Source: Jiella pacifica (GTDB taxonomy: Bacteria; Pseudomonadota; Alphaproteobacteria; Rhizobiales; Rhizobiaceae). From it: a DNA stretch of 64,000 bases. Under the pieces are notes generated by a model. The model was not told the origin of the DNA and did not search any database. It saw only the letters and a list, made by a program, of their open reading frames with translations. This document shows, piece by piece, positions 4,644 through 13,977 of this stretch; position 1 is the first letter of the stretch, and each line of letters begins with the position of its first letter. A program made the position numbers and the translations under genes. The stretch lies in NCBI RefSeq assembly GCF_010500815.1, contig NZ_JAAAMG010000018.1, positions 1-64,000 on the forward strand. Reading direction: 5' to 3'.

Positions 4644-6005
4644 TCAGGCGGCCTCGGCCATGCCGATGCGGTTGCGCCCGCCGCGCTTGGCCTCGTACAG
4701 CGCCGCGTCGGCGCGCTTCAAGAGCGCCTGGCGCGGCTCGGCGACGCCCGCCGCGACCGCGACGCCGGCGCTCACCGTCACCGCCAGATGGTCGCCGGAG
4801 ATCGGAAACGGCGCTTCGCAGACCGCCTGGCGGATCCGCTCGGCCACCGAAGCGGCGGTCTCGGCGTCGGCGCCGGGCATCAACACGGCGAATTCCTCGC
4901 CGCCGAACCGGCAGGCGAGATCGCTCGCCCGGATCGCCGTCTTCAGGCGCCGGCCGAATTCCTTCAGCACGGCATCGCCGGCATCGTGGCCGAAGCCGTC
5001 GTTGATCCGCTTGAAGTGGTCGATGTCGAACAGCGCCAGGGCGAAGCCGCTGGTTCCATCGGCGCCGCCGGCGGTCCGCGCCAGATGGATGTCGAGAAAG
5101 CGGCGGTTGTGCAGGCCCGTCAGCGGGTCGGTGACGGCAAGCTCGATGGTCTGCTGCAGCGACCGGCGCAGGCCCTCGTCGTAGCGCTTGCGGCGCAGCT
5201 GGGTTCGGAGCCGCGCGGCGAGCTCGTTGCGGTCGATCGGCCGGGAGACGTAGTCGTTGGCGCCGAGCTCCAGCGCCCGCGCCGCCCGCGCCTCGTCGCC
5301 GGCTTCGGCCAGCGCCAGGATCGGCAGCAGCCGCGTCGCCTCGGCCGAGCGCAGCTGCGAGATCAGCCGCAGCGGATCGTTGCGTTCGGCGGCAAGGTCG
5401 ATCATGATGACGTCGGCGCCGCCCGCCGACTGGAGGAGCGCCGCCGGCTCGGTGACGACGGTCAGTTCCGTTTCGGTCCTGAGGCGCCTGGCGATCGAGC
5501 GACCCTCCGCTTCGGTCTCGATATAGGCGAGCGTCCGCGATTTGGCGGTGGTGGCGAGCTGGCGCAGCATCTCCATCTCGCCGCCGACCAGCTGCATCGC
5601 CGTCTCCGCCCGGCTCCGGAGCTCGTCGGTGATCCGCTTCAGCCGCGTCAGGCTGCGCACGCGGGACATCAGAGCTAGATCGCCGACCGGCTTGGTGAGG
5701 AAATCGTCGGCGCCCGCCTCGAGCCCGGTCAGCCGATCTTCGGGCTGGTCCAGCGCCGTGATCAGCACCACGGGCACGTGCATCAGCTGCGCCGAGGCCT
5801 TGATCCTGCGGCAGACCTCGAAGCCGTCGAGCCCCGGCATCATCACGTCGAGCAGCACCAGGTCGAAGGGCTGACGGTCCAAAAGCGCCAGCGCCGCTTC
5901 GCCGCTCTCGGCACTCGCCACCTCGTAATACTCGGCCGCAAGCCGCGCCGTCAAAAGGCGGAGATTCACCTCGATGTCGTCGACGACCAGAATGCGCGCG
6001 GTCAT
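4644..6005 (-). CDS. pleD: PleD-type response regulator / diguanylate cyclase
   Basis: The 453-aa product makes c-di-GMP from two GTP when phosphorylated, controlling the motile-to-sessile switch and polar development. The domain order is REC1 (about 1-120, phospho-acceptor Asp53 in LVLLDVMMPG), a second receiver-like domain (about 150-270), and a GGDEF domain (about 285-450). The active-site loop GGEEF starts at residue 368 and is intact. An RxxD inhibitory site (RASD) sits five residues before it, so product feedback inhibition is expected. It lies 8 nt downstream of divK, the order found in many Hyphomicrobiales, so the two are co-transcribed and share upstream kinases. Confidence 0.95.
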   Translation of the reverse strand: MTARILVVDDIEVNLRLLTARLAAEYYEVASAESGEAALALLDRQPFDLVLLDVMMPGLDGFEVCRRIKASAQLMHVPVVLITALDQPEDRLTGLEAGADDFLTKPVGDLALMSRVRSLTRLKRITDELRSRAETAMQLVGGEMEMLRQLATTAKSRTLAYIETEAEGRSIARRLRTETELTVVTEPAALLQSAGGADVIMIDLAAERNDPLRLISQLRSAEATRLLPILALAEAGDEARAARALELGANDYVSRPIDRNELAARLRTQLRRKRYDEGLRRSLQQTIELAVTDPLTGLHNRRFLDIHLARTAGGADGTSGFALALFDIDHFKRINDGFGHDAGDAVLKEFGRRLKTAIRASDLACRFGGEEFAVLMPGADAETAASVAERIRQAVCEAPFPISGDHLAVTVSAGVAVAAGVAEPRQALLKRADAALYEAKRGGRNRIGMAEAA

Positions 6006-6013
6006 CGCCGTGC

Positions 6014-6385
6014 TCAGGCGTCGTCGAGGAAGGAGCGGATCACTTCCATGAAGCGATTCACCGAGATCGGCTTGGAGATATAGGCCTCGCAGCCGCCCTG
6101 GCGGATGCGCTCCTCGTCACCCTTCATGGCGAAGGCAGTGACGGCGATGATCGGGATCTTGAACAGTTCAGGATCGGCCTTCAGCTGCCGCGTGACGTCC
6201 AGCCCCGAGATCTCCGGCAACTGGATGTCCATCAGGATCAGATCCGGCCGCTCGGCGCGGGCGAGATCCATCGCGTCCAGACCGTTGCGGGTCTGCACCG
6301 TGTCATAGCCGTGCGCGACGAGGAGATCGCGGAACAGCTTCATGTTCAGCTCATTGTCTTCGACGATCATGACTTTCTTCGCCAT
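6014..6385 (-). CDS. divK: Single-domain response regulator DivK
   Basis: The 123-aa stand-alone receiver domain acts in the DivJ-PleC-DivK relay that controls CtrA activity and cell-cycle asymmetry in alphaproteobacteria. It opens [20 protein letters not shown], nearly identical to known DivK. Acidic residues near position 10, Asp53 ([10 protein letters not shown]) and the KPI lysine loop are present. The ATG at 6385 was chosen because AAGGAG lies just upstream and matches the family start; a 10-residue in-frame extension to 6415 has no support. The gene is divergent from the DUF3572 gene, with an 89-bp shared promoter region. Confidence 0.95.
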
Positions 6386-6474
6386 CGTCGATTCTCCTTG
6401 CCTCGACCGGGCCACGAATTTCGATTACCGCTGAGTATGTAAGCGGATTTCATTAAGAATCGGGAATCGCCGCA

Positions 6475-9219: not shown

Positions 9220-12711
<3,492 letters not shown>

Positions 12712-12928
12712 GGCGAGACCTCGATCTGCATCATCCACCGAGCCACGCGCGCCGCTGCTTTTGGCGGACGGGGGCATCGGCATAGTCGGCCCGGAACCGG
12801 CCGCCCCCTAGGGGTAGGACGGCGCTCCGCCCGAAGAAAGGACCGCGCTTTCCCGATCCCCAGGAAAGCGCCCTCCTCCACCGCATAATCCGCCTGTCCG
12901 GCGGGAGTGTCAGGAGGAACCGCTCCCG

Positions 12929-13015
12929 TCACACGGCGTGAACGATCAGGCTGAGCGCGAAGAGAAAGCTGGATATGGCGAGCAGGGACAGGACATCCTT
13001 GGCGACGGTGAGCAT
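12929..13015 (-). CDS. 28-aa single-span membrane protein under LexA control (SidA-like candidate)
   Basis: ATG at 13015 to TGA at 12929 encodes 28 residues: a short N terminus (MLTVAKDV) then one hydrophobic helix, LSLLAISSFLFALSLIVHAV. AAGG upstream can serve as ribosome binding site. A LexA box lies 34 nt upstream, between plausible -35 and -10 elements. In Caulobacter the SOS regulon includes SidA, a 29-aa inner-membrane peptide that blocks division by acting on FtsW/FtsN. The size, single helix and LexA control match that role, but I cannot claim sequence homology. It lies between lolD and dnaE on their strand. It could also be a neutral small ORF in the dnaE leader. Confidence 0.6.
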   Translation of the reverse strand: MLTVAKDVLSLLAISSFLFALSLIVHAV

Positions 13016-13045
13016 GGCAGGGCCTTCGTTTTTGTTTGCGTCCCT

Positions 13046-13074
13046 ATTTGTTCCTTTTTTGTTCTATTGGTCAA
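13046..13074 (-). promoter_or_regulatory. Promoter of the 28-aa gene overlapping the LexA box
   Basis: Read on the minus strand, TTGACC at 13074-13069 (-35) is followed after 17 nt by ACAAAT at 13051-13046 (-10, weak). The LexA box sits between the two, the classic position for repression. Confidence 0.5.
13050..13064. promoter_or_regulatory. LexA (SOS) box GTTC-N7-GTTC
   Basis: GTTC at 13050-13053, seven bases (CTTTTTT), then GTTC at 13061-13064 is an exact match to the alphaproteobacterial LexA direct-repeat operator. It is the only such match I noticed in an intergenic region of this window. It should control the 28-aa gene and perhaps dnaE downstream. Confidence 0.8.
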
Positions 13075-13281: not shown

Positions 13282-13977
13282 TCAGTGCATCGCGAGCGGC
13301 ACGATCCTGCCCTCTTCCAGGGTGATCGCATGATCCATCCGCCGGGCGAGGTCGTGATTGTGGGTGGCGATGAGCGCGGCGACGCCGGACTGGCGCACCA
13401 GGGCCGTCAGCGCGTCGAAGACGTAGCCGGCGGTGGTCGGGTCGAGATTGCCGGTCGGCTCGTCGGCGAGGAGGACGTGCGGCGAGTTGGCCACGGCGCG
13501 GGCGATGGCGACGCGCTGCTGTTCGCCGCCGGAGAGTTCGGCCGGGCGATGCTCGGCACGCGCGCCGATGCGCATGTAGTCGAGCAGCTCCTGCGCCCGC
13601 GCCGCGGCTGCCTTGCGCGGCAGCCCGTCGATCATCTGCGGCAGCATGACGTTCTCCAGGGCGGAGAATTCCGGCAGGAGATGGTGGAACTGGTAGACGA
13701 AGCCGATCGCCTGCCGGCGCATGGCCGTGCGGGCTTCGTCGCCGAGCGTGCCGCAGGCGACGCCGCCGACATAGACCTCGCCCGAGCCCGGCCGGTCGAG
13801 CAGCCCGGCGATGTGGAGCAGCGTCGACTTGCCGGCGCCGGAGGGGGCGACGAGGGCCACCATCTCACCGGGAGCGATGGTCATCTCGGCATCCTTCAGG
13901 ATGACCAGCCGGTTCTCGCCCTGCCGATATTCCTTGCCGACGGCGTCGAGCCGCAGCGCGTGATTTTCTGCCATCAT
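13282..13977 (-). CDS. lolD: Lipoprotein-releasing ABC transporter ATPase LolD
   Basis: The 231-aa ATPase drives the inner-membrane Lol complex that releases outer-membrane lipoproteins to LolA. Motifs are Walker [11 protein letters not shown] near residue 45, the Q-loop with the LolD-type [18 protein letters not shown] near 93, signature [14 protein letters not shown] near 150, and Walker [12 protein letters not shown]. The start overlaps the lolC stop by 4 nt (ATGA), showing translational coupling. It is the last member of the proS-lolC-lolD group. Confidence 0.95.

Follow-up and report, generated by a model that had tools for sequence, protein, structure and literature searches.

A gene of 28 codons that encodes a predicted membrane peptide lies between a lolD-type gene and dnaE in Jiella pacifica (Rhizobiaceae), in the first 64,000 nucleotides of contig NZ_JAAAMG010000018.1 (assembly GCF_010500815.1), the stretch here called the window. 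Its coding frame, LexA operator and neighbourhood are conserved, and its product is similar to a 29-residue peptide at the corresponding locus of Caulobacteraceae. Taken as a whole, these observations are best explained, with good confidence, by a Rhizobiaceae orthologue of sidA that would be switched by LexA and would block the late divisome. SidA itself is described as an SOS-induced inner-membrane inhibitor of 29 amino acids acting on FtsW (PMC4211646). The gene is predicted to be a real, conserved SOS gene standing outside any family model in the five members scanned, none of which scored above a curated cut-off of Pfam or NCBIfam. The features of the locus are as follows.

12929..13015 (stop codon included), minus strand: proposed orthologue of sidA, 28 codons long and encoding a predicted single-TM peptide, with profile matches in relatives
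13050..13064, minus strand: LexA operator GAAC-N7-GAAC (GTTC-N7-GTTC on the plus strand), conserved in relatives
13069..13074, minus strand: -35-like TTGACC, also seen before the box in relatives
13045..13051, minus strand: weak -10-like ACAAAT/CAAATA that shares bases with the end of the operator, from the sequence only
12845..12871, minus strand: terminator-like hairpin of 12 pairs and a T-rich tail in the gap from the small gene to dnaE, a weak hit of a pattern scan
9220..12711, minus strand: dnaE (DNA polymerase III alpha), downstream neighbour at 217 nt from the small gene, TIGR00594 match, start MTQAPS
13282..13977, minus strand: upstream neighbour, lolD-type ABC transporter ATPase (PF00005), a name presumed from gene order

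An earlier sequence-only reading had claimed a 28-codon ORF for a single-helix membrane peptide beneath a perfect LexA operator. On translation the frame at 12929-13015 of the minus strand gives 28 residues, MLTVAKDVLSLLAISSFLFALSLIVHAV, and with a 17-residue hydropathy maximum of 2.47 the product is predicted to be a single-helix membrane peptide of about the size of SidA. The candidate operator, GTTCCTTTTTTGTTC at 13050-13064, stands 34 nt from the ATG exactly as claimed and is the sole exact GTTC-N7-GTTC in the window. Less of the proposed promoter stood: the -35 element TTGACC is good, but the -10 element is weak and a consensus promoter scan did not flag the small-gene promoter. The arrangement recurs among 64 promoters picked for having a box (early loci plus profile-search loci, a list separate from the 64 genera counted below), where TTGAC is found 9-10 nt ahead of the box in 41. 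The operator therefore occupies the spacer and reaches as far as the -10 element, where LexA would block polymerase.

Exact boxes of this form are expected by chance in a sequence of 64 kb (shuffle mean 1.92; at least one in 88 of 100 shuffles), so that the box alone is no proof and evidence is needed from relatives. The whole genome holds 151 exact boxes versus 93 for a reversed control pattern. The same operator precedes the lexA gene of this genome (box at L457:1277, ORF at L457:1330, PF01726 E 5.4e-16), and another box is found about 2 kb ahead of a second dnaE-type gene. Published LexA boxes of Caulobacter, for example GTTCttgttatGTTC, share this form (PMC12700426). A further LexA-type box of the same genome, GTTCTTGTTATGTTC at position 1179 of locus L452, lies about 135 nt before an ORF that by eye resembles a flagellin; its 15 bases are identical to a published Caulobacter LexA box.

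Relatives were sought in a family sample of at least 109 genera. A single-sequence search with the window peptide covered 151 family genomes and gave matches in 29 of them (E<=10), several of which were false; those at L046, L047, L054, L056 and L058 were rejected, and a profile search was used instead. The loci fetched with the single query were mostly 28-codon ORFs with an upstream box, many of them between lolD and dnaE. Alignment A1 was made of 23 peptides from 30 such loci, leaving out a contig-end duplicate (L041) and six that were non-matching or unboxed, and in it D7, S10, L11 and F17 are invariant. With a combined profile, A2, 77 Rhizobiaceae genera were searched, and 70 of them gave a hit at E<=0.1. 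An exact GAAC-N7-GAAC lies no more than 100 nt ahead of the ORF in 64 of these 70, or in 67 if one mismatch is allowed, against 5 and 79, respectively, of 2580 control windows from the same stretches. As for the remaining matched genomes, one has a box with two mismatches (G048), one has no box (G056), and one was left out of the count as no ATG was found (G018). The reading took in 78 of 79 Rhizobiaceae places (81 including two from Caulobacter), with one of the two places of G077 in each pass. Exactly 28 codons are found in 52 of the 64 boxed ORFs, and these 52 carry D7 in 51 cases and F17 in all 52, with S (33) or A (19) at position 10 and L (26), F (22) or M (4) at position 11.

The profile search gave no match in seven of the 77 genera (G005, G006, G044, G076, G026, G043 and G065), the first four of which are represented by genomes of 1.1-2.0 Mb. 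In the named set, the window DnaE is closest to those of Tianweitania and Chelativorans, and neither box nor peptide was found in the 1.5 kb ahead of dnaE in these two.

The pattern of substitution in the small ORF is of the coding type. Of the A1 sequences, 20 have 28 codons; over their 190 pairs, mean differences of 13.6, 7.3 and 15.5 are found at first, second and third codon positions. Third positions are the most variable (permutation p = 0.0003) and first positions nearly as variable. In four close pairs, 4-9 codons differ synonymously and 6-9 non-synonymously, which suggests rapid evolution of the peptide outside its motif. The search of relatives that the sequence-only reading had called for supports it, frame and box being kept together in 64 of 77 genera, typically after lolD and/or before dnaE; a frame that is not conserved among relatives with the box, which would have refuted that reading, is not what they show. 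A chance ORF beside a chance LexA box might be entertained given that 64 kb of sequence would be expected to hold a box, but the fact that these 64 genera keep frame, length and box together, along with the coding-type substitution, makes such a coincidence exceedingly improbable.

The position of the gene raises another explanation. When 1-1.5 kb were read on each side of the 64 boxed loci, dnaE was found in 38, lolD in 45, both in 26 and at least one of them in 57. The small gene precedes dnaE in the same orientation and could be a leader that tunes dnaE expression through its translation, with the LexA box really controlling dnaE. A precedent for translation at this place is sORF25 of Sinorhizobium meliloti, which ribosome profiling reports as a translated ORF in the 5'-UTR of dnaE1, and the authors of that study suggest that some 5'-UTR sORFs may act as uORFs (PMC10117765). 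However, the peptide is conserved at the amino-acid level with a fixed length of 28 codons, the gap between the ORF and dnaE ranges over 115-542 nt, and dnaE is absent from the 1-1.5 kb read in 26 of the 64 boxed loci. The terminator-like hairpin before dnaE also speaks against a leader, if weakly: the pattern scan found one such hairpin against a shuffle mean of 0.6, and in the minimum-energy fold of 12790-12930 an arm of the hairpin pairs elsewhere and the hairpin is not formed. A leader function is accordingly considered quite unlikely, and a sidA-like gene is the preferred reading of the locus. Two observations on the window may be added. The consensus scan flagged a promoter-like site at 12913-12885 of the minus strand, between the small ORF and dnaE. 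At 4644-6415 there are two adjacent minus-strand genes, one a PleD relative by a strong PDB match and the other a small response regulator that presumably resembles DivK.

Evidence for a relationship to SidA comes from Caulobacter, Phenylobacterium and Brevundimonas: the place just ahead of dnaE holds a relative at all 14 loci in which a dnaE start was found, out of 15 genomes asked. Taking the start that aligns (GTG in one case), these peptides (alignment A3) have 29 codons in 13 of the 14 loci, a length that depends on the choice of start, as an in-frame upstream ATG would give 40 codons at three Caulobacter loci. The exact box is present in 12 of the 14; C. radicis and one Caulobacter MAG are without a perfect box. 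In a C. vibrioides MAG (G663) neither a dnaE start nor the peptide was found. Rfam CC2171, tried as a marker of Caulobacteraceae, was rejected because it matches other alphaproteobacterial families too.

The comparison with SidA was made through these Caulobacteraceae peptides, and strain NA1000 itself entered it through locus tags only. The sidA gene is CCNA_02004 (PMC10769358) and Caulobacter dnaE is CC1926 (PMC1839093). Since recN is both CC1983 and CCNA_02062, the two series of tags are offset by 79, which places CCNA_02004 within about one gene of CC1926, that is, sidA beside dnaE. We take sidA to be CC_1927.

An hhalign comparison of A1 with A3, a single pairwise comparison of two hydrophobic profiles, gave a gapless alignment from Met1 to residue 20 with probability 92 and E 6.3e-7. 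Shuffle controls are mixed. Scored against the rhizobial profile, the three Brevundimonas rows obtain 16.1, 11.7 and 13.3 bits, values reached by 0, 1 and 0 of 3300 shuffles (shuffle maximum 11.8), and the Caulobacter rows 11.3, 10.0 and 6.8 bits (1, 4 and 27 shuffles); locus L211 obtains 9.1 bits (5 shuffles). The Phenylobacterium rows are weak at 4.0, 4.4 and 7.2 bits (109, 89 and 22 of 3300), as is a Caulobacteraceae MAG row at 3.5 bits (146 of 3300). In the reverse direction, against the Caulobacteraceae profile, no more than 20 of 4600 shuffles attain the score of 18 of the 23 rhizobial rows; among these 18 the window peptide obtains 7.5 bits (9 shuffles), and the other five are weak (74 to 2874 shuffles). 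A second null, of 9208 transmembrane windows drawn from other proteins, was partly contaminated with family members, and reliance was therefore placed on the shuffles and hhalign; its best window scores 13.0 against A3, a value that 21 of the 23 rhizobial rows fall short of, and sequence alone is therefore not decisive. Both the LexA-box promoter and the place directly upstream of dnaE are shared with SidA, and sequence homology to the Caulobacteraceae peptides is indicated by hhalign. The joint conservation of frame and box, the 29-codon relative upstream of dnaE and the gapless alignment thus favour the likeness to SidA that the sequence-only reading had suspected, and the window gene is, with high probability, orthologous to sidA and more than an analogue.

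Beyond these two families the picture is patchier. Upstream of dnaE, a short hydrophobic ORF preceded by an exact box was found in 3 of 29 class-wide loci that were the best matches, and in 15 of 80 more from 178 matched genomes, which were mostly of at least 2.4 Mb with some smaller; one of the 80 stretches (L222) has only 316 bases. In one family, f12, the combination occurs in 27 of 30 loci read (36 genomes matched). The dnaE-linked boxed peptides of f12 (L091, L092, L120-L147) are longer, mostly 39-47 residues, with an extra N-terminal segment before a [KQE]D-A-[AG]L motif, and the peptide of a named Parvibaculaceae MAG (L320) is of the same type. A boxed short ORF is plain in 19 of 42 named loci and doubtful in one (L322). 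Such ORFs also stand upstream of dnaE in Devosia, in one of two Methylobacterium and in Methylorubrum; none was found at that place in Azospirillum, Bosea, Hyphomonas, Henriciella, Belnapia and others. When 151 class-wide and named loci were rescanned with A2, 22 reached 12 bits, namely those of Caulobacteraceae, L211, Devosia, L323, L320, L091, L092, L156 and L192. The remaining distant peptides are putative relatives, with only place, box, size and hydrophobicity in common. A class-wide profile search (385 genomes) yielded mostly chance matches and was set aside; synteny did better.

Eight further motif peptides in Rhizobiaceae have no box and no dnaE or lolD nearby (L049, L384, L390, L396, L426, L427, L428 and L431). 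Ten of their neighbours in all were compared with PHROG families: neighbours at L049, L384, L428 and L431 match such families, among them exonuclease, repressor-type regulator and tail-fibre-like ones, and the one neighbour examined at each of L390 and L396 gave no match. Searches for viral relatives with alignment A4 gave none, and a phage collection gave no match in one search and one match at E 2 in another. Three DNA patterns hit 15 loci, all judged to be chance. The unboxed copies may be prophage-borne division inhibitors. A broader and more tentative idea, on balance doubtful, is that SidA is an ancient class-wide SOS checkpoint peptide of the lolD-dnaE locus, of which temperate phages of these bacteria captured LexA-free copies to stop host division at a time of their own.

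The mechanism that we infer runs from repression and induction to membrane topology, divisome target and division arrest. In undamaged cells LexA would occupy the GAAC-N7-GAAC site that separates the -35 and -10 elements and keep the promoter off. Upon DNA damage, activated RecA would promote self-cleavage of LexA, and a small mRNA for the 28-residue peptide would be made. The peptide would enter the inner membrane as one helix, with its N-terminus, including K6 and D7, inside according to the positive-inside rule, and would block the late divisome (FtsW/FtsI/FtsN) until the damage has been repaired and LexA is back. Through the proposed orthology with SidA, the window peptide is likely to be an SOS division inhibitor, presumed to be LexA-repressed and to act on FtsW/FtsN.

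A short, hydrophobic, LexA-controlled peptide might instead be a membrane-depolarising toxin, SOS-induced like TisB and DinQ, and not a divisome inhibitor. Toxins of this type depolarise the membrane and are under antisense RNA control. DinQ of E. coli is described as a toxic single-TM SOS peptide (PMC3567139). A toxin of this kind is nevertheless unlikely here given the conservation of D7 and F17, the orthology with SidA and the chromosomal core locus. The reading as a sidA orthologue offers a testable candidate for an SOS division inhibitor in most of the Rhizobiaceae genera sampled. It would also provide a deep natural alignment of a 28-residue proposed divisome inhibitor, in which D7 and F17 are nearly always kept, with S/A at position 10 and L/F/M at 11, and these kept residues may point to a way in which FtsW/FtsN can be switched off.

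Searches of the literature, through titles and abstract openings, named no SidA relative outside Caulobacter, and through these and some passages named no rhizobial SOS division inhibitor; a text search for the letters of the peptide returned nothing. Several known systems are nonetheless informative by comparison. YneA, SosA and SulA differ in size from the window peptide. What they share with its proposed role is that division is halted upon SOS induction: YneA targets FtsW, and in S. aureus division is blocked by SosA (PMC13396833, PMC6851548), whereas the target of SulA is FtsZ (PMC4211646), unlike the proposed action on FtsW/FtsN. DidA of Caulobacter is likewise a damage-induced inhibitor with a single TM segment, acting on FtsW/I/N, but it is described as a SOS-independent protein of 71 residues from another locus (PMC4211646). 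As a small translated ORF at the same place, sORF25 of S. meliloti, compared by location only, is probably this same gene, which would be a likely explanation for the ribosome-profiled orphan ORF. The closest parallel is SidA (CCNA_02004) itself, which the window peptide resembles in length (28 versus 29 residues), in its one predicted TM helix, in its LexA box and in its place just before dnaE, and the window family aligns without gaps with the Caulobacteraceae peptides of that place. The window peptide is only 14-25 % identical to those peptides and differs from them in its C-terminal half, which reads FVWM... in Caulobacteraceae.
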